The notes under the pieces: model-generated
The model's database searches: none
The model's input: the letters and a program-made list of their open reading frames with translations, nothing else
Told to the model about the DNA's origin: nothing
Translations under genes and position numbers: made by a program
Source of the DNA: Sporosarcina psychrophila
Lineage (GTDB): Bacteria > Bacillota > Bacilli > Bacillales_A > Planococcaceae
Length of the DNA stretch: 64,000 bases
Assembly (NCBI RefSeq): GCF_001590685.1
Contig: NZ_CP014616.1
Coordinates: 3,719,001 to 3,783,000 of the forward strand
Direction: 5' to 3'
Shown: one piece after another, positions 6,858-56,682 of the stretch
How the letters are laid out: every line of letters starts with the position of its first letter
Numbering within the stretch: the first letter of the stretch is position 1

Positions 6858-7606
6858 TACAATCCCTCCTTTACAAACTGCATAATCATTTCAGGTTCAC
6901 GCGCTAACTCTTCTTTCATCTCATTAAAGGTTTCAAGAGATATGGAACGAAATTTCAATTGATCACCTGCACGTATTAAAAACGGTTCAACGCGTTTCAA
7001 ACAGTATAGATCGACTGGTGTCCGCCCGATTATATTCCAACCTCCAGGAGATTCTATCGGGTAAATACCTGTCTGCGTGCCTCCAATTCCAACCGTTCCT
7101 TTAGGTACGCTTAATCGTGGTTTTTCCAAACGTGGGACATGGAGTATCTCCGGCAATTCCCCGAGGTACGGAAATCCTGGTAAAAAACCAATCATATACA
7201 CCTTATAGCTTGTGCCTGTATGTATAGCGATTACCTCTTCACGTGTCAGCCCTGTATGGTCGCAAATCCGCGGTATATCTTCACTAAACAAGGTGTCATA
7301 ACAGACTGGTATTTCAATGGTACGCGTGTTTACACTCAATATACTGTCAGTTCTGTTCACCCACTTTTTCAGTAATTCTTCAATGATTACACTAGGGTTC
7401 ACAAGTTCTTTGCGATAAAAAACAGTTACCGTTTTATTACTCGGTACGACCTCTTCAAGTAAATGATTCCTGTCACTTTCAACAACCTGACAAAATTGCT
7501 GGATTGTGTGATAGATTTCTCGGCTCGTCTCCGGGCCAAAGTCGAAACGTATTGTTTGTTCGTTCATCACCATTGCACGGGGGATAATTTGCTTGTTAGG
7601 ATTCAT
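6857..7606 (-). CDS. pxpB: 5-oxoprolinase subunit B (KipI-like)
   Basis: This 249-residue KipI/PxpB-family protein carries the family's central GTSYKVYMIGFLPGFPYLGE and the VPKGTVGIGGTQTGIYP and SPGGWNIIGRTP segments. It should form a complex with PxpC and, with PxpA, hydrolyse 5-oxoproline using ATP. The first in-frame ATG (7606) overlaps the last codons of pcp by 11 bp; ATGs at codons 12 and 14 are alternatives, and none has a strong Shine-Dalgarno, so the start is uncertain. Coupling from pcp translation is likely. Confidence 0.9.
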   Translation of the reverse strand: MNPNKQIIPRAMVMNEQTIRFDFGPETSREIYHTIQQFCQVVESDRNHLLEEVVPSNKTVTVFYRKELVNPSVIIEELLKKWVNRTDSILSVNTRTIEIPVCYDTLFSEDIPRICDHTGLTREEVIAIHTGTSYKVYMIGFLPGFPYLGELPEILHVPRLEKPRLSVPKGTVGIGGTQTGIYPIESPGGWNIIGRTPVDLYCLKRVEPFLIRAGDQLKFRSISLETFNEMKEELAREPEMIMQFVKEGL

Positions 7607-8210
7607 CAGCAGATAGCACTTCGATGCATACGGCGACGCCTTTTTTCAAATCTTCATGTGACCAGCTTGGAATTTTGCCATGTTCAATCGCCAATTCATG
7701 TGAAGCAGGTATATGAAGGAAACCCGATTTCATCGTTGGGCGTTGTGTTGCTGCATAATGCAGTCCTTCATACATAACGTTGTTGCACAAATAGGTACCA
7801 GCAGTATTTGAAACTTCAGCCGGCAGCCCTTCTTCTAGTAATCGATTCACCATTGCGCGAACTGGCAGTGTTGACATATATCCCGCTTCACCTTGCGCTT
7901 GAATTTGTTCATCAACAGGCGTATTACCATTATTATCAGGCTCGCCGTCTTTCACATTAATTGCAATCCGTTCAGGCGTCATTTTAAAACGGCCTCCCGC
8001 AAGCCCCAGTGAAATCACTGCATCTGGTTTTAGCGCTTCAATATGAGTAAGAAGTTGCTCGCCGGATGATTGGAAGTCTACCGTCAATACTTCACTGTGA
8101 ATTTTGTAATTGCCGATCACTTTGCCATGCAGTTCTTCTACGATTTTCATCGTCGGATTAACAGTGAATTTTAAAAAGGGCTCAAACCCTGTAAGTAAAA
8201 GTGTTTTCAT
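7596..8210 (-). CDS. pcp: Pyrrolidone-carboxylate peptidase
   Basis: This cytosolic cysteine peptidase (C15 family, 204 aa from the chosen start) removes N-terminal pyroglutamate from peptides. The N-terminal LLTGFEPF, the catalytic-glutamate region around GLAGGRFKMTPERIAIN, the cysteine in NTAGTYLCNNVMYEGLH and the histidine in GFLHIPA are all present. The open frame extends to 8273, but the ATG at 8210 matches the conserved N-terminus and has AGGT 7 nt upstream. As first gene of an operon with pxpBAC it supplies the 5-oxoproline that the downstream enzyme opens to glutamate, a peptide salvage route. Confidence 0.95.
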   Translation of the reverse strand: MKTLLLTGFEPFLKFTVNPTMKIVEELHGKVIGNYKIHSEVLTVDFQSSGEQLLTHIEALKPDAVISLGLAGGRFKMTPERIAINVKDGEPDNNGNTPVDEQIQAQGEAGYMSTLPVRAMVNRLLEEGLPAEVSNTAGTYLCNNVMYEGLHYAATQRPTMKSGFLHIPASHELAIEHGKIPSWSHEDLKKGVAVCIEVLSADES

Positions 8211-8344
8211 CATGATGACCTGCTTTCTTATTATCATTGTTGTTACTATAACGGTAGTTTTATATTTTTTCAATACTCCGGTGATTACAAATTCAGTGTT
8301 CTTTTGGATTGCTATTCTGTGAGCATGCTTAATTGATTGATTGT

Positions 8345-8968
8345 CAGCGGTATTTGATCGGGTGACGGGCTGATATGATTGGTGGCTGGTATATATGATC
8401 GGCTGTCAGTGGTATTTGATCGGTAGCCAGGATATATGCTCGGATCTCAAGGTGATATGATTGGTGGCCTGGATATATGCTCGGCTGTCAGGGGTATATG
8501 ATCGGTAGCCGGGATATATGCTCGGATCTCAAGGTGATATGATTGGTGGCCTGGATATATGATCGGCTATCAGGGGTATATGATCGGTAGCCGGGATATA
8601 TGATCGGCTGTCAGTGGTATACGATCGATGGCCGGCGTATATGCTTCGGGTGTCACGGTGATATGATCGGTGGCCGGGATATATGATCGGGTGTCAGGGG
8701 TATATGATCGGGTCACGGGATATATGCTCGGTTGTCACGGTTATATGATCGGTTCACGAGGGATATGCTCGGGTGTCACGGTTATATGATCGGTTCACGA
8801 GGGATATGCTCGGGTGTCACGGTTATATGATCGGTTCACGAGGGATATGCTCGGGTGTCACGGTTATATGATCGGTTCACGAGGGATATGACGGTTATAT
8901 GATCGGTTCACGAGGGATATGCTCGGGTGTCACGGTTATATGATCGGTTCACGAGGGATATGATCGCT
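8345..8968. repeat. Phased TATGATCG array 1
   Basis: About 30 copies of a degenerate core TATATG(A/C)TCGG fill the gap between pcp and the glgP terminator. Counting the TG step of successive cores gives 8355, 8376, 8396, 8417, 8437, 8458, 8478, 8499, 8519, 8540, 8560, 8581: strictly alternating 21 and 20 bp. The right third is a nearly perfect 41-bp tandem repeat (from about 8740), indicating recent expansion. The period is not a multiple of three, and no open frame spans it. Related arrays lie at 25025-25510 and 30930-31500. Function is unknown. Confidence 0.9.
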
Positions 8969-8987: not shown

Positions 8988-9019
8988 AAAAAGGACTCCC
9001 CGTTAAAGGATAGCCCCCA
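8988..9019 (-). terminator. Terminator of the glgP transcript
   Basis: On the minus strand GGGCTATCC, a TTTAAC loop, then GGGGAGTCC (one A-G mismatch) are followed by TTTTT. The CTATCCTTTAACGGG part recurs in the terminator at 25527, also next to a TATGATCG array. Confidence 0.75.
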
Positions 9020-9069: not shown

Positions 9070-11502
9070 TCAAACCTGTTTTTTCAACTTCCAGATCTCT
9101 GTCGCATAATCTTGGATTGTTCGGTCGCTGGAGAACTTTCCTGAGTGAGCGACATTCGTTACACTCTTATGAAGCCAGGATAATTTATCACGGTACGTCT
9201 GCTCCACTAGTTCGTGAGTTTCAAGATAAGGCTCAAAATCTTTTAAGACAAAATAAGGATCATTTTGGGATAGAATATTGTAATAAATATCTTTGAACTC
9301 AATTTCATGCGATCCAAATTCACCCTGATTTAATTGGTCTAAAATCCGGCTAATCCTGTCATCCGTATTGTAAATATCCGTAGCATTATAACCGCCATGT
9401 TGATGGTAATTCAATACTTCATCCGCTTTTAAACCGAAAATGAAAATATTTTCATTGCCAACGGCCTCTTTAATTTCAACATTTGCACCATCTAGCGTAC
9501 CAATTGTTAAAGCGCCATTCATCATCATTTTCATGTTGCCCGTACCTGATGCTTCCTTACTCGCAGTTGATATCTGTTCACTAACATCGGCTGCTGGTAT
9601 AATTTTTTCAGCAAGGCTAACATTATAGTTTTCTAAAAATACAACTTTTAGTTTACCCTGAATAGCCGCATCGTGGTTCACAATCGAGGCGACCTTATTA
9701 ATAAGCTTGATTACTTCTTTCGCTAAATGGTAACTCGGTGCGGCCTTTGCTCCGAAAATAAATGTGCGAGGAATCATATCTAGATTTGGATTTTCTTTTA
9801 ATTCATTGTATAAATAAATAATGTGGAAAATATTAAGTAACTGACGTTTGTATTCATGAAGCCGTTTAATTTGTACATCAAAAATTGATTGATCATCTAC
9901 TAAAATACCCGTGCGCTCATGAATGAGGTTCGCTAATATTTGCTTATTTTCATGCTTCACTTGATGAAATTTCTCTAAAAATGAAGCATCCTTCGAATAT
10001 TTTAATAAGCTGATAAGCTGTTTGGGGCGTTGTATCCACTGTGGACCAATTGATTCTGTTATAAGTCCCGATAATTTAGGATTTGCTTGCAACAGCCAAC
10101 GGCGATGGGTGATTCCGTTCGTCTTATTGTTAAAACGATCCGGGAAAAGTTCATAAAAATTCTTCATTTCCTTTTCCTTTAAAATATCCGTATGAATTTG
10201 CGCGACACCATTCACACTGAAGCTCCCAACAATTGCGAGCCGTGCCATGTGGATTTGTTCATCAGCGATAATGGCTAGCTCCGGAATTTTCTCTCTAAGC
10301 TCCTGATGATCAAACCAGAGTCCTTTGCAAAAACGCTCATTGATTTCATCAATAATCATATAAATACGCGGAAGTAGATGCTCCATCATGCCTTTAGGCC
10401 AGGTTTCAAGCGCTTCACTCAATGTTGTATGATTCGTGTAGGCAATTACTTTCGTCGTTACTTCCCAAGCACTGTCCCAACTGAAGTGCTCTTCATCCAT
10501 AAGTATTCTCATTAGTTCAGGGATTGCTAAAGTTGGGTGCGTATCGTTCACTTGAATAACCACTTTTTCAGGTAAATACTTCAACGATTTTTGATGGTTC
10601 TTTTTAAAGTCCTTAATGATATTTTGTATACTGGAAGAAACAAGGAAATACTGTTGCTTTAAGCGCAACTCTTTTCCTTCATACTTCGAATCGTCAGGGT
10701 ATAAATATCCTGAAATTTGTTCAATCGAATGCTTATGATCAAGATCATGGTAATAATGCATTCCTTCTTCTGATGAGCCGTCCCGATCTCTACCAACTGA
10801 TTCTGCACTCCAAAGACGAAGTGTATTGATCACTTCATTTTTATAGCCAACAATAGGAATATCATAAGGTATCGCCATTACCTTATCTGTATTTTCATGT
10901 TTAAATTCAATATTTCCATCATTCCGCTGAAACATATGTACGTTTCCGTGATAATGAATGCAAATAACTTCGTCTTCTTTTCGTGTTTCCCAAGCGTACT
11001 GATCCTTTAACCAATAATCCGGAAGCTCAACCTGGTTACCATGGATAATTCGCTGTTCGAATAACCCGTAACGATAACGTATTCCAAAACCATGTCCAGG
11101 ATATTTAAGTGAGGCTAATGAATCGAGAAAGCAAGCCGCTAATCGGCCTAACCCGCCATTCCCTAAACCAGCATCATGCTCTTGGGCATAGATGTTATCA
11201 GGGTCGAATCCTAACTGCTTCAGCGCCTCATTCGATTGTTCAAGCATTCCACAATTAAGCAGGTTACTTTCAATTAAACTGCCCACTAAAAACTCCATCG
11301 ATAAATAATAAACTTGTTTACAGCTTTTCTCGTTATATCTTTTTTTAGTCGATTGCCAATGCGGTAGGATCTCCTCATTGACAATTGAAGCAATCACATA
11401 ATAAATTTCTTTATTGGTCGCACCTGCTACTTCTTTACTTTTGTTTGTTTGTAATTTGCTTATGATCCGCTCTTTAAACTCATCCACAGTTAGTTCAAGC
11501 AA
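9070..11502 (-). CDS. glgP: Glycogen phosphorylase
   Basis: This 810-residue GT35 alpha-glucan phosphorylase releases glucose-1-phosphate from glycogen non-reducing ends using PLP and phosphate. The N-terminal half contains AQEHDAGLGNGGLGRLAACFLDS-type sequence near residue 110, and the PLP-lysine signature EASGTGNMKMMMNGALTIG lies near residue 655-675. The length agrees with bacterial GlgP. It is the last gene of the glg cluster, 11 bp after glgA, and ends at a terminator beside a phased repeat array. The start ATG has no upstream competitor. Confidence 0.97.
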   Translation of the reverse strand: MLELTVDEFKERIISKLQTNKSKEVAGATNKEIYYVIASIVNEEILPHWQSTKKRYNEKSCKQVYYLSMEFLVGSLIESNLLNCGMLEQSNEALKQLGFDPDNIYAQEHDAGLGNGGLGRLAACFLDSLASLKYPGHGFGIRYRYGLFEQRIIHGNQVELPDYWLKDQYAWETRKEDEVICIHYHGNVHMFQRNDGNIEFKHENTDKVMAIPYDIPIVGYKNEVINTLRLWSAESVGRDRDGSSEEGMHYYHDLDHKHSIEQISGYLYPDDSKYEGKELRLKQQYFLVSSSIQNIIKDFKKNHQKSLKYLPEKVVIQVNDTHPTLAIPELMRILMDEEHFSWDSAWEVTTKVIAYTNHTTLSEALETWPKGMMEHLLPRIYMIIDEINERFCKGLWFDHQELREKIPELAIIADEQIHMARLAIVGSFSVNGVAQIHTDILKEKEMKNFYELFPDRFNNKTNGITHRRWLLQANPKLSGLITESIGPQWIQRPKQLISLLKYSKDASFLEKFHQVKHENKQILANLIHERTGILVDDQSIFDVQIKRLHEYKRQLLNIFHIIYLYNELKENPNLDMIPRTFIFGAKAAPSYHLAKEVIKLINKVASIVNHDAAIQGKLKVVFLENYNVSLAEKIIPAADVSEQISTASKEASGTGNMKMMMNGALTIGTLDGANVEIKEAVGNENIFIFGLKADEVLNYHQHGGYNATDIYNTDDRISRILDQLNQGEFGSHEIEFKDIYYNILSQNDPYFVLKDFEPYLETHELVEQTYRDKLSWLHKSVTNVAHSGKFSSDRTIQDYATEIWKLKKQV

Positions 11503-25024: not shown

Positions 25025-25510
25025 GTGGATATGATCGGGTGGTGAGGGGATATGATCGAATGCCTGGTTATATGATCGGGTGGCATGCGGATATGATCGA
25101 TTACCCGGTTATATGATCGGGTCGCACTCGGATATGATTGGTTGTCGGGTTATATGATCGGGACGCACTCGGATATGATCGATTACCTGGTTATAGGATC
25201 GGGACGCACTCGGATTTGATTGGGTGTCTGATGATAGGATCGGGTGCCGGGTTATATGATCGCGTCGCTCGCGGATATGATCGGTTACCAGGTTATATGA
25301 TCGCGTCGCACTCCGATATGATTGGTTGCCGGGTTATATGATCGGGTCGCTCGCGGATATGATCGGTTGCCTGGTTATATGATCGCGTCGCTCGCGGATA
25401 TGATCGGATACCAGGTTATATGATCGGGTCGCACTCGGATATGATCGGGTGTCTGATGATATGATCGCGTCGCACGCGGATATGATTGCTTACCGGGTTA
25501 TATAATCGCT
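25025..25510. repeat. Phased TATGATCG array 2
   Basis: About 24 cores of the type (T/G)ATATGAT(C/T)G(G/C) lie between the MerR operon promoter and the terminator of the aminotransferase gene. Measured TG positions 25094, 25114, 25135, 25155, 25176 and 25196 alternate 20 and 21 bp. Intervening words alternate between a GTCGC(A/T)C(T/G)C type and a TTACC(A/C/T)GG type, i.e. a 41-bp dimer. The array is followed at once by a terminator whose sequence is shared with array 1. Confidence 0.9.
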
Positions 25511-25526: not shown

Positions 25527-25556
25527 AAAAAAAGGCTACCCGTTAAAGGATAGCCC
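25527..25556 (-). terminator. Terminator of the aminotransferase gene
   Basis: Minus strand: GGCTATCC, loop TTTAAC, GGGTAGCC, followed by TTTTTTT. The stem is 8 bp with one G-T pair and sits 5 bp after the stop codon. Confidence 0.9.
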
Positions 25557-25560
25557 CATC

Positions 25561-26727
25561 TCAAACACCCACACGTACTTCTTGCTTAAACCGCTGAACT
25601 GCCTTCGCCGAATCAACTGAATGACCCATTTCATTCAACGTGTCACCAATTAATTCAATCGCTTGTTCCAACATTTCCTCTGTTGTGTTCCCCATATGCC
25701 CAATTCGGAACGCTTTTCCTGCTAAATGAGCAAGTGATCCTGCTACAATCACACCTTTTTTACCAAGCGTTGCGCGGAATTCCGAGTCGCCGACACCCTC
25801 AGGATAGAGGATACAGCTCAATGTTGATGCTGCTACATTTTCATCAGCAATTGCTTTCATGCCATATTCAGAAAGCGCGGCTCGCACTGCTTTGCCGAAT
25901 GCCGTATGGCGAATAATTCTTGTCGACAAGCCTTCTGCGTGAACGAGTCTCATTCCTTCATTATAGGCATAAATCAAGTTCACTGGCGGTGTTGCAAAAT
26001 ATTTTGAAGGGTCGTTCATGACAGGAATCCAATTGTAGATATCGCAATAATAAGCCGGAACGCGTTCAATCTTCTCCCTAGCAGCCAAAGCGGTTTTGTT
26101 AAAGGCGACAATCGCTAATCCCGGTGGAACGCCAATTGCTTTTTGAGAGCCAGTCAAAATAACATCAATTTTATAATCTGGATGGCCGTATGTTTTACTC
26201 ATATCTTCTTCCATCGCAGCCGTTGCACAAACACCATCTAAAATGACAAGTGCACCATGTTTTTTCACGATTGGTACAAGTGCTTCGAGATCTGCTGCAA
26301 CACCAGTCGATGTGTCTGCATGCGTAATTGTTACTGCTTTATAATGCCCTTCAACAAGTTTCGCCTCCACTTCTTCAGGTGTAAATTGCTTGCCCCATTC
26401 CGATTGAAGCACATCCACCTCAATGCCAAAAGCTTGCCCTAATTTAATGAACCGGTCACCGAAATAACCTTGGCTGACAACTAATATCTTTTCCCCAGCC
26501 GCGACTGTGTTAACAAGCGCCATTTCCATTGCAATCGTTCCTGACCCGGCAACGACAAAAACATCCCCGTCTGTTTGCAACATTTCACGTGTCTGTTCAA
26601 TCGCATTTTTGTAAATTGCAACAAATCTCGGATCAGTATGCCCTCTTGTTTCACTCGCCATCGCATCATAAATGGAATCGACAACAGGCGTCGGTCCAGG
26701 TATCAGTAACATTTCTTCGTTTCTCAT
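25561..26727 (-). CDS. Class V aminotransferase (alanine/serine-glyoxylate type)
   Basis: This 388-residue PLP enzyme of the serine-pyruvate/alanine-glyoxylate aminotransferase group begins with LLIPGPTPV and has SGTIAMEMALVNTV near residue 65, DGVCATAAMEED near 170 and the PLP lysine in LTGSQKAIGVPPG near 195. These enzymes transfer amino groups between alanine or serine and glyoxylate or pyruvate. Since isocitrate lyase lies just upstream, conversion of glyoxylate to glycine is a reasonable role, but the amino donor is not determined. The ATG at 26727 is preferred (GGGGGG 7 nt upstream) over an upstream frame extension. It has its own terminator and is separated from aceB by another. Confidence 0.85.
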   Translation of the reverse strand: MRNEEMLLIPGPTPVVDSIYDAMASETRGHTDPRFVAIYKNAIEQTREMLQTDGDVFVVAGSGTIAMEMALVNTVAAGEKILVVSQGYFGDRFIKLGQAFGIEVDVLQSEWGKQFTPEEVEAKLVEGHYKAVTITHADTSTGVAADLEALVPIVKKHGALVILDGVCATAAMEEDMSKTYGHPDYKIDVILTGSQKAIGVPPGLAIVAFNKTALAAREKIERVPAYYCDIYNWIPVMNDPSKYFATPPVNLIYAYNEGMRLVHAEGLSTRIIRHTAFGKAVRAALSEYGMKAIADENVAASTLSCILYPEGVGDSEFRATLGKKGVIVAGSLAHLAGKAFRIGHMGNTTEEMLEQAIELIGDTLNEMGHSVDSAKAVQRFKQEVRVGV

Positions 26728-26823
26728 TCTATTTCCCCCCACTTATTTTCAAAATACAATTACTAGCTCTAGTACTACTTCCATACTTGTTGAGTAAACC
26801 CTCTTATATTGGATCAAGGCAAG

Positions 26824-30929: not shown

Positions 30930-31500
30930 TTGGATATAATCGGTTGGTGAGGTTATATGATTGGTTGAATAGTGGATGTGCTCGGTGTCATTGGTATATG
31001 ATCGCTTTGACTGTGGATATGCTCGGTGTCATTGGGATATGATCGGTTGGCGGGGGTATATGATCGCTTAGACTGTGGGGATGCTCGGTTTCATTGGGAT
31101 ATGATTGCTTGGCAGTGGATATGCTCGGTTGGACTGCAGGTATGCTCGGTTAGCGGGGTTATATGATCGCTTTGACTGTGGATATGCTCGGTGTCATTGG
31201 GATATGTTCGCTTTGACTGTGGATATGCTCGGTGTCATTGGGATATGTTCGCTTTGACTGTGGATATGCTCGGTGTCATTGGGATATGTTCGCTTTGACT
31301 GTGGATATGCTCGGTGTCATTGGGATATGTTCGCTTTGACAGTGGGTATGCTCGGTGTCATTGGGATATGATCGCTTTGACTGTGGATATGCTCGGTGTC
31401 ATTGGGATATGATCGCTTTGACTGTGGATATGCTCGGTGTCATTGGGATATGTTCGCTTTGACAGTGGATATGCTCGGTTGGCGGAGTTATATGATTGGT
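30930..31500. repeat. Phased TATGATCG array 3
   Basis: About 28 cores of TATG(A/C/T)TCG(G/C) lie between the LytTR gene and the rbsB terminator. In the centre, a 41-bp unit (CTTTGACTGTGGATATGCTC half, GGTGTCATTGGGATATGTTC half) repeats nearly perfectly several times. Measured TG positions 31205, 31226 and 31246 are 21 then 20 bp apart, the same alternation as arrays 1 and 2. Words between cores differ from the other arrays, so only the core and spacing are conserved. Confidence 0.9.
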
Positions 31501-41385: not shown

Positions 41386-41589
41386 TGAAGCTACTTTACT
41401 AGTGATAAAACGACACTCTCCCTTCCTATGAATATACAGCTTACCAAAGGATTCGATATATTACCATAATCCATAAGAAGGAAATTAAGAGAAATGCAGT
41501 CTAAGTTCGCTACATCGTGTCGCAATGACTGCATGACCTACATCCTGTAGACCCAAGCGGAAGGCGCCATCTATATTTTCGGCACTACT

Positions 41590-41850
41590 TATATAGAATT
41601 AACTAGGTGGTATCCCTCACCCGTATAACGAACAACTCTAGCGAAGGAGCGACACTAATGAAAGGCAGCCAAATATCGCCGTGTCCTGCGGCAATGGCTG
41701 CACACCCGCATCCTGCAGGCGCCGGAGCAATAAGACCAAGGAGGGATGCAGTTCAATCCCTCCCTAGGGATCTTCTGACGGGCTTATTGCGTAAGGCCAT
41801 CACCTAGCGACAAAGCGGTGTTGGAAGAACAGTCTATTTGTTAAGTGCCG
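41590..41850 (-). repeat. TTGAA-type dispersed repeat, long copy
   Basis: Inverse copy of 1305-1475, with shared end blocks (GGTGGTAT, TCTAGCGAAGGAGCGAC, GGGCTTATTGCGTAAGGCCATCACC, CGACAAAGCGGTGTTG). Compared with that copy it has about 100 extra bases, including the hairpins GGCAGCCA...TGGCTGC (41663-41701) and GGAGGGAT/ATCCCTCC (41740-41763). A related hairpin GCAGTC...GACTGC lies just outside at about 41494-41536. The 41386-41908 gap holds no gene. Confidence 0.75.
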
Positions 41851-45648: not shown

Positions 45649-45724
45649 CGCAATTAGCCTCCCCTAGTTAATGTGACATTGGTCATAACTTGATTAAAAA
45701 ATTTTCTGAGCACCACTTGTAACT

Positions 45725-45985
45725 GTAATGGTTAATGACTAAACTCGCATGGCTTCACTCGTAACTGTGATGGCTTATGTCTAAACTCTCATGGCTCCGC
45801 CAAGCTCTAATGGCAATTCGTCAAACTGTCATGGCTCAACTCGTAACTGTGATGGCTTACGACTAAACTCTCATGGCTTCGCCGAACTCTAATGACAATT
45901 CATCAAACTGTCATGGCTTCACTCGTAACTGTGATGGCTTATGACTAAACTCTCATGGCTTCACCCGTAACTGTGATGGCTAAAT
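45725..45985. repeat. Phased ATGGC array
   Basis: Thirteen ATGG(C) cores, each preceded by a CT(G/C)T(G/C) type word, start at 45728, 45749, 45770, 45791, 45810, 45831, 45852, 45873, 45892, 45913, 45934, 45955 and 45976. Spacing is 21, 21, 21, 19 repeated (an 82-bp superunit), then 21s. The array occupies the space between two convergent terminators. No sequence similarity to the TATGATCG arrays, but the average spacing of 20.5 bp is the same. Confidence 0.92.
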
Positions 45986-48953: not shown

Positions 48954-50294
48954 ATTCCTAAGAATACCGGCGTATCCGCCAATTATGGATTAGGCTAGCT
49001 CCACAGTTCCTGCGGTTAGAAGTCTTATGGCTTCTTTTTCAAGATTGATACTTGCGTTATAGTCTCGGTCGTGACACGAGTTACATGCCGGACACACCCA
49101 TTCACGTAATGCAAGAACCTTAACGTCTTTATGGCGATAGCCACAACTTGAACAGAGTTGGCTAGAGGGGAAAATTTTTGCGACAGCGATGACTGTCTTC
49201 CCGTACCACTTCGCCTTGTATTCAAGCATTGTGCGGAACTGTGACCAACTCACTTCACTGATTGCTTTGGCTAAGTTGTGGTTTTTCAGCATGTTTGATA
49301 CCTGCAAATCCTCAATTCCGATGACATCGTGGTTTTTGATGATTTCGGTGGAGACTTTATGCAAGTAATCATTTCTTTTATTTGCAATTTCTTCATGAAT
49401 ACAAGCGACTATTCTTCGTTGTTTCTGATAGTTCTTCGCCTCATGCAGGGGTTTCTGTTGATAAATCGCATGTTCTTTTCTTCTTGAAAGAATCCGTTGT
49501 GCTTTGGCTAATTTCTTTTCCAATGCGCGAAAGAATTTTGGATTTTCATAGACGGTCTCATCTGAATTTATAGCGAAATCCTTTAGACCAACATCAATAC
49601 CGACAGAAGTATTGGTTTTAGGTAGCTCACAAACCTCTGTTTCGACAAGAATGGAGACAAAATAGTTCCCGCTCGGATTCCGTCTGATTGTCGCATTCAT
49701 TATACGCCCTGAGATTTCACGGCTTTTTGCGAGTTTAACAAACCCCAACTTGGGCAATTTGATGGCATTGCCAATAACTGCAATATTACCGTTTGTCTGT
49801 TTTGTTGTGTAGGATTGGACGTTATTTCTTTTCGATTTAAAACGGGGTGGTTTGGTTTGCTTCTTAAAGAAACGGTCAAACGAGTCTGCAAGGTTGCGGA
49901 CAGCTGATTGAAGGGCGATGCTGTCCACTTCTTTTAACCAAGATAATTCCTTTTTCAATAAGGGAAGGCCAGCTGAACAAGTGCCATATGTTAGCCCTTT
50001 ACCTGTTTCTTTATAGGTGTCATTCCATTTATACAAAAAGTGATTAAAGACAAATCGGCTACATCCGATTGTTTTAGCAATGAGGACTTGTTGGTCTTGG
50101 TTTGGATAGATACGGAACTTATAGGCTTTGTTGGTCATCACAGACTTTCACCTCATTTCAAAAGGGTTTTGAGTTAATTATAGAATACACGTTCTGTTAA
50201 AGCTAGTATTTTGGGCTGCTGCCCAACCGAAATTCTTCTCCCACTTATCACTTGGCCACGCCCTTTTCGTGATTGAAGTGGGCGTCTTCTTTCG
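48915..50294 (-). mobile_element. IS200/IS605-superfamily tnpB-only element
   Basis: A 1380-bp element with tnpB only and no tnpA. On the minus strand the left end follows TTAC (50295-50298) and carries a CGCCC/GGGCG hairpin (50259-50284). The right end finishes in TCAA after the GGTGGGGG hairpin. TTAC and TCAA are the known IS608 left and right cleavage motifs, which supports the boundaries. No target duplication is expected for this superfamily. Confidence 0.75.
48990..50141 (-). CDS. tnpB: TnpB RNA-guided nuclease (IS605 OrfB family)
   Basis: This 383-residue TnpB is a likely RNA-guided DNA endonuclease. RuvC-like catalytic residues are intact: Asp in [16 protein letters not shown] (about 185), Glu in [14 protein letters not shown] (about 275) and Asp in [17 protein letters not shown] (about 360). 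A zinc ribbon [10 protein letters not shown] ... CPACN lies between the last two. The N-terminal [17 protein letters not shown] and [10 protein letters not shown] are typical. Start is GTG (50141) with GAGGTG 7 nt upstream, or the next-codon ATG. It is full length with no frameshift, so it may be active, although self-transposition would need tnpA in trans. Confidence 0.93.

Positions 50295-53516: not shown

Positions 53517-56682
<3,166 letters not shown>

Follow-up and report, generated by a model that had tools for sequence, protein, structure and literature searches.

The locus and its arrays

The window analysed here is a 64-kb stretch of the genome of Sporosarcina psychrophila, a soil bacterium whose genome is one 4.67-Mb contig. 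It contains four arrays of short direct repeats, which are given below with the genes and signals around arrays 1 and 2. Genes were called by a codon-usage caller, and the gene names were assigned by eye.

7596..8273, minus strand: pyroglutamyl-peptidase-like gene, on the opposite side of array 1 from glgP
8273-8245, minus strand: promoter-like site at the pyroglutamyl-peptidase-like gene, from a scan
8353..8966, plus strand: array 1, with 31 chained TATG[AC]T[CT]G cores, 23 of them exact, at steps of 21/20
8988..9019, minus strand: terminator-like stretch behind glgP, past array 1, recognised by eye
9070..11502, minus strand: glycogen phosphorylase-like gene (glgP), 3' end towards array 1
25030..25508, plus strand: array 2, core as in array 1, with 24 chained cores, 17 of them exact
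25532..25557, minus strand: terminator-like stem with a T tail of the aminotransferase gene, immediately beyond array 2, from the terminator scan
25561..26742, minus strand: aminotransferase-like gene, 3' end towards array 2
30935..31498, plus strand: array 3, core as in array 1, with 28 chained cores, 17 of them exact; flanking genes convergent
45714..45981, plus strand (by the core as written): array 4, with a different core, AACTSTVATGGC (ATGGC); flanking genes convergent

A chained core has at most two mismatches to TATG[AC]T[CT]G. In array 1, the chained cores run from 8353 (TTTGATCG) and the earliest exact core, TATGATCG, lies at 8394. This array departs from the 21/20 steps twice, in a single step of 22 bp and in a break where a unit is truncated (near 8888-8898). 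Tandem Repeats Finder (TRF) reported periods of 20, 31, 41, 72, 82 and 123. The first-pass annotation of this DNA had located the TG steps at 8355, 8376, 8396 and onwards, and these positions were correct. It had also stated that the array is neither CRISPR nor coding, which agreed with our finding of no constant repeat of CRISPR length at array 1 and no long ORF across it. The steps of array 4 are 21-21-19-21, which sum to 82, or 4 x 20.5 bp. The terminator-like stretches of glgP and of the aminotransferase gene are alike (41 bp at 90%), and the one behind glgP is absent from the terminator scan output.

Elsewhere in the window, the Rfam sRNA family Bacillaceae-1 (RF01690) is represented twice on the plus strand, at 41485-41551 and 41654-41719. 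An ORF at 48990-50141 resembles IS605-type OrfB/TnpB by eye, in a genome without a match to the Y1 transposase family. The region 53652-56183 is a long tract of the 9-bp unit GCTACTGGA in tandem (262 copies by TRF), with Gly-Ala-Thr-rich, collagen-like frames; it holds two long plus-strand ORFs in different frames, which suggests a frameshift.

Extent and period of the arrays in the genome

The arrays of the window had been described as a three-locus family. This number is too low, as at least 38 arrays of TATG[AC]T[CT]G were found in the genome by pattern searches and in fetched stretches. The 38 loci combine pattern matches with sampled stretches, and elsewhere an array needs adjacent exact cores to be caught. 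Among the 721 steps at these loci, 697 were of 20 bp (376) or 21 bp (321), and the remaining ones were of 22 bp (8), 19 bp (4) or double steps (12). Alternation of 20 and 21 bp had been called strict; it is common, occurring in 449 of 599 successive 20/21 pairs of the 38 rows, but some arrays are nearly all 20.

A two-core pattern matched 288 times in the genome (194 forward, 94 reverse), while the same pattern written backwards as a control had no match in the same genome, indicating that the arrays are not a product of chance. In an untargeted sample of intergenic DNA from this genome, the autocorrelation of 7-mers peaked at 41, 82, 123, 103, 40, 21 and 20 bp, irrespective of the core. In relatives, identical intergenic 7-mers peaked at 20, 40 and 60 (G039), at 39, 42, 78 and 84 (G050) and at 82, 64 and 42 (G035); G014 (100-kb sample) and G043 (140-kb sample) showed neither 20/21 word chains nor such a 7-mer peak. 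Lone motifs outside the arrays were counted in intergenic DNA, with 42 observed against 42 expected from one Markov sample per locus. A chance level of this kind would be predicted if it is the rows that count and not isolated sites.

The mean of about 20.5 bp is reached differently by lineage, through 20/21 in the window genome, mostly 20 in Fictibacillus and 21 in Planococcus. Steps of 21-21-21-19 occur in one Psychrobacillus array, in one array of Bacillus FJAT-22090, and in the arrays of a second core family of the window genome, GTTGRACACT, which has steps of 21 and 19 bp and lies at the following places.

L169, 12896-13299 and 18562-18795: GTTGRACACT arrays
L170, 3666-3799: GTTGRACACT array
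L171, 7093-7325: GTTGRACACT array
L178, 2315-2569: GTTGRACACT array

The proposal of a fixed two-turn pitch was sustained as to the pitch of about 20.5 bp, but the 20/21 alternation is one way of several to keep it (20, 21 or 21-21-21-19). Several unrelated cores share the period, a diversity that a single protein cannot account for and that counts against the protein-row explanation proposed below. It suggests either related proteins of other specificities or a more general physical cause of the period.

A mirror core, GCTCGTAT, which is the reverse and not the complement of TATGCTCG, forms arrays of the same spacing in G011, G017, G010 and G039 (L157-L168) and others. The backwards control pattern matches 18 of the 200 sampled genomes of the order, and its matches in the five Sporosarcina genomes inspected are arrays or array-like repeats of this mirror core. 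Matches of the mirror pattern were also seen in the g8 genomes G081, G159 and G187.

Placement relative to genes and to replication

A gene 3' end is faced by 36 of the 38 loci, and at 34 of these 36 the stop codon is no more than 200 bp away. Where both flanks were called (n=36), the flanking genes were tandem at 24 arrays (16 '--' and 8 '++'), convergent at 12 and divergent at none, compared with 266 tandem, 66 convergent and 93 divergent among 425 array-free gaps of at least 100 bp (Fisher p 0.0003). In other Bacilli, 1 of 72 array rows was divergent among the matches listed; this count covers 90 of at least 118 stretches, giving 96 rows of which 72 had both flanks, with orthologues between strains retained and with the non-Bacilli stretches and L096, L133 and L151 left out. 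The first-pass annotation had proposed a genome search for the TATG core with 20/21 spacing, and the outcome was 38 loci that lie nearly all past gene 3' ends, together with arrays in related genomes. Such an address beyond gene ends suggests that the arrays may be boundaries.

Many array ends adjoin an A-run and a hairpin which by eye resembles the terminator of the facing gene; the consensus terminator scan placed a terminator next to one of the three arrays scanned. The flanking genes were varied in kind (by eye), and a regulon was rejected on this ground. The flanks themselves are unrelated among loci, the glgP and aminotransferase pair being the sole one that is shared. In G002 (C18:35079-35153, near L211), a 25-residue stretch that is 68% like the aminotransferase C-terminus was observed just behind glgP and beside an array. 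It hints that an array end may have been copied together with the 3' sequence of a gene.

Transcribed arrays might instead work as RNA, as targets of Rho or of some other RNA-binding protein. Compared with shuffled versions of the sequence, the minus-strand RNA of array 1 folds less (z +2.9, with 20 of 20 shuffles folding as well or better), while the plus strand folds more (z -4.4). However, the orientation of arrays to their neighbours varies, '--' prevailing here and '++' in Fictibacillus among the matches listed, a spacing of two DNA turns would serve no evident purpose in RNA, and no Rfam family was found at the arrays. With opposite z-scores on the two strands and no Rfam family, this line led nowhere, and we consider an RNA-level element very improbable.

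In the window genome, the GC skew changes sign at 2.34-2.58 Mb (with L229 and L239 as exceptions), which puts the origin near coordinate 0. At 31 of the 38 loci (31:7, p 0.0001), including 11 of the 12 convergent ones, the core is on the lagging side, and a single locus of the 38 falls in 1.525-2.825 Mb around the terminus, which is 28% of the genome (p 0.00007). These observations speak for a replication or chromosome-organising element, in which polar sites around the origin would load or guide a chromosome-handling protein. On the other hand, the opposite lean by local skew was found in Fictibacillus (24 of 33 rows) and Amphibacillus (9 of 11), the rows not being deduplicated and being among the matches listed. 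The polarity is thus lineage-specific. A universal replication-polar signal was rejected for this reversal, and we judge an organising element of this kind to be improbable.

REP-like elements are known for intergenic placement at 3' ends and for a replication-linked orientation. The placement and orientation of our arrays recall them, and the arrays might accordingly be mobile elements moved by a Y1 (RAYT/IS200) transposase. Yet 8 of 10 array-rich genomes, the window genome among them, lack Y1_Tnp (PF01797) and 9 of 10 array-poor genomes have it, and the flanks are unrelated bar one pair. Mobility by a Y1 transposase was largely contradicted by this distribution and seems to us scarcely credible.

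Conservation of the core

The unit profile of the window genome has a constant part of 8-13 bp, and the core TATG[AC]T[CT]G sits within a wider (G/T)(A/T)TATGMTYGGTT motif. GATC had been pointed out in many cores, but it is not the constant part and is not supported as a key; at position 5, roughly three in four units have A and one in four have C. The LexA half-site is TATGTTCG, and it was rejected as the core since T seldom occupies position 5 (9 cases).

A rival explanation is that the arrays are neutral minisatellites, made by tandem duplication and gene conversion only, with a core shared by descent. Duplication does contribute to array growth in the window genome, where spacer identity is 0.675 within arrays against 0.405 between them. 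Copy numbers also vary between orthologues, and the terminator stretch common to the glgP and aminotransferase loci is in favour of the same explanation. Nevertheless, where units of this genome lying two steps apart have spacers that are 80% or more equal, they differ by 0.00-0.03 at T1, G4, T6 and G8, by 0.09-0.16 at positions 5, 7 and 9, and by 0.10 on average in the spacers. For neighbouring units under the strictest threshold, which left 12 pairs, no difference between core and spacer was seen (ratio 1.23, interval 0.16-1.90).

The arrays of genus g7 have 3-6 cores with spacers that differ between units. From 20 loci fetched, 17 sequences make up five orthologous sets. Pairwise differences between orthologous arrays amounted to 8/784 in the core and 230/1029 in the spacers, as compared with 582/2291 in the upstream and 483/2744 in the downstream flanks; the pairs are non-independent, and core columns were labelled from sequences at most one mismatch off the core. 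The core and spacer differences were 0/400 and 110/520 in set B, 0/88 and 21/104 in set C, 3/144 and 78/210 in set E, and 1/32 and 10/39 in set F, with a weak contrast in set A (4/120 and 11/156). Several indels between orthologous arrays are of one or two whole units and one is of a single base. Among the 61 steps below 50 bp between exact cores, 58 were of 21 bp, two of 42 and one of 22, and spacer identity was 0.466 within arrays against 0.522 between. Slippage cannot set the spacing in g7, because the 21-bp step is kept although the spacers are no more alike within arrays than between them.

Judged by these alignments, natural selection evidently maintains the core in one related group at least, g7, and its putative sequence-specific recognition is well supported. 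The first-pass annotation had argued for selection on a repeated sequence-specific contact and against slippage alone; g7, which keeps its cores while spacers diverge and holds the 21-bp step with unique spacers, agrees with the former, but duplication also acts in the window genome. Neutral minisatellites are contradicted for g7 by this divergence of spacers around a kept core and by the fixed step, and the occurrence of the same core in several genera is a further argument against them. We regard them as a quite improbable account of the whole.

Another property of the g7 arrays (L254-L273) is that 16 of 20 start with one inverted core, forming an CGCGCATA-6 bp-TATGCGCG palindrome. An inverted core at the array start was found in 0 of 38 rows of the window genome and 0 of 68 rows tested in other Bacilli. 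Within 120 bp of the 38 rows of the window genome, there was no inverted core upstream and one downstream.

In 8 of 14 array sets, and in the average over the sets, A/T content peaks at the half-unit harmonic of about 10 bp, the sets sharing cores. The core TAT-GATC also resembles the classical gyrase cleavage consensus. Both features are consistent with a topoisomerase sink, that is, phased sites at which gyrase or topoisomerase IV would wrap and cleave the DNA and absorb positive supercoils past gene ends in the manner of BIME-2, as is the location of the arrays past gene 3' ends and never between divergent genes. In a published account, gyrase sites of E. coli carry a G/C pattern phased at 10 bp, occur beyond transcribed operons on the downstream side and are enriched in BIME-2 (PMC6379681), a pattern and location that favour the same mechanism. 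However, the strictness of T1, G4, T6 and G8 exceeds the needs of a bendability signal, the half-unit harmonic is not the dominant one in the window genome's own array set, and the shared cores of the 14 sets weaken the count. Moreover, the flanking genes do not appear specially highly expressed (by eye). On balance, a topoisomerase sink seems unlikely.

Distribution and orthologous loci

Of 200 genomes sampled from the order, 52, representing 10 of 17 genera, had at least three TATG[AC][TG]CG cores at 19-21-bp spacing, and 34 had three TGCGCG cores. Genera with this design, among the matches listed, include Fictibacillus, Amphibacillus, Planococcus, Psychrobacillus, Rossellomorea, Solibacillus, Thalassobacillus and others. 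In genus g7, 6 of 7 sampled genomes had three-core TATGMKCG matches. The first-pass annotation had counted absence from close relatives, with no bound protein, against its interpretation. Within the genus of the window genome, 9 of 61 genomes were positive for three TATGMTCG cores and 52 were without them, which tells against the interpretation, whereas the presence of arrays in other genera tells for it.

G044 had 657 three-core TATGMKCG matches, the top count of the 200 genomes; one of its arrays, at L034, has 34 cores. In other species, long open frames run through arrays of 21-bp units (388 aa at L034), so that a coding role may be possible there. About 25 of at least 118 stretches, among the matches listed, lie outside the Bacilli, and the 15 of them that were inspected are all near-identical tandem units, 10-bp repeats or within ORFs. 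A viral origin was rejected, as viral contigs had two matches, both within ORFs.

At the aminotransferase 3' end across the genus, G002 has a full array with the same core, G031 a short one and G009 a decayed one; arrays with other cores stand there in G014 (TTATTGGCG), G050 (TTTGCGCG) and G037 (TATGCGCG), and no array was seen in the stretch displayed for G011, G017, G035 and G043. The gene glgP was found in 3 of 13 genomes, and its 3' end bears an array in G002, a decayed one in G031 and none in G009. The decayed or missing arrays at orthologous ends in G031 and G009 indicate that no single array is indispensable. One in-frame TGA was reported in the aminotransferase orthologues of G017, G011 and G043 (L218, L219 and L220).

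Proposed function

Taken together, the conserved bases, the two-turn spacing and the chance level of lone motifs suggest cooperative binding in rows by a sequence-specific protein. We propose that each array is a row of sites for such a DNA-binding protein and most likely forms a boundary between transcription units; we hold this leading explanation tentatively, at a little short of an even chance. The putative protein would read the 8-bp core TATG[AC][TG]CG, in the form TATG[AC]T[CT]G in the window genome. One core per 20-21 bp, or two helical turns, would set the bound molecules on one DNA face, where they could touch each other. Rows past the 3' ends of transcription units would most likely act as boundaries, in which the protein-coated stretch may stop read-through transcription and/or separate the topology of the neighbouring units. 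Change of the arrays mainly by whole units would keep the phase.

A broader form of this explanation is a bacterial insulator system, in which a protein common to many Bacilli would form short chromatin-like boundary fibres on phased TATGMKCG sites where transcription units end, and lineages would have re-tuned the core across the genome while keeping the boundary positions and the two-turn pitch. We think this broader form possible but rather unlikely. Once the protein is named, the question of dedicated bacterial boundary structures between genes opens.

Comparison with known repeat systems

The iterons of plasmid origins are direct repeats near 20-22 bp that place a protein on one DNA face, and they belong to one origin with a rep gene. 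Our arrays have the same repeat size and one-face geometry but stand at no fewer than 38 chromosomal loci beside ordinary genes, and no replication initiator gene was recognised by eye among the genes facing them. CRISPR repeats are constant over about 23-47 bp and have unique spacers, while only 8-13 bp are constant in the array units.

TAACTGA heptamer repeats of Beggiatoaceae and Cyanobacteria (PMC4679880) are likewise a short conserved word in intergenic direct-repeat sets with a patchy distribution across taxa. According to that report, they stand mostly just upstream of start codons, for which a translation role was suggested, whereas our arrays stand past gene 3' ends. BIME-2 and REP elements resemble the arrays as intergenic repeats, and the gyrase sites, in PMC6379681 as cited above, lie downstream of transcription as the arrays do. 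By contrast, REP units are palindromic and the units of the window-genome arrays are direct repeats without an adjoining inverted core; the Y1 transposase (PF01797) of RAYT-borne REP elements is absent from the window genome.

The closest published elements that we found are the STAR repeats of S. aureus. As described in the part of PMC3532100 considered here, STAR elements of Staphylococcus are, like the arrays, direct repeats in intergenic DNA that combine a conserved motif with spacers particular to each locus; they too occupy tens of loci per genome and are patchy between species. Their motif, T[GAT]TGTTG[GT]GGCCC[CA], is 14 bp long, GC-rich, repeated at least 40 bp apart and mostly present in 1-7 copies (PMC3532100). 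This motif is missing from the unit profile of the window genome, and 697 of 721 array steps are 20 or 21 bp. The same part of PMC3532100 describes no helical phasing for STAR and no neighbourhood common to two species, whereas the arrays are phased and array sites are shared by different species.

No description of such arrays was recognised in the open-access PMC literature, where three cores searched as whole words had 0 matches; this does not prove absence. Since the tested defining features of STAR and of RAYT-borne REP elements are lacking, we call these elements intergenic repeat arrays outside any named family. Among the many bacterial intergenic repeats without known use, the signature of this class is one site per two helical turns, and it combines evidence of selection that does not depend on how arrays grow, a well-defined location past gene ends and a countable, wide distribution.
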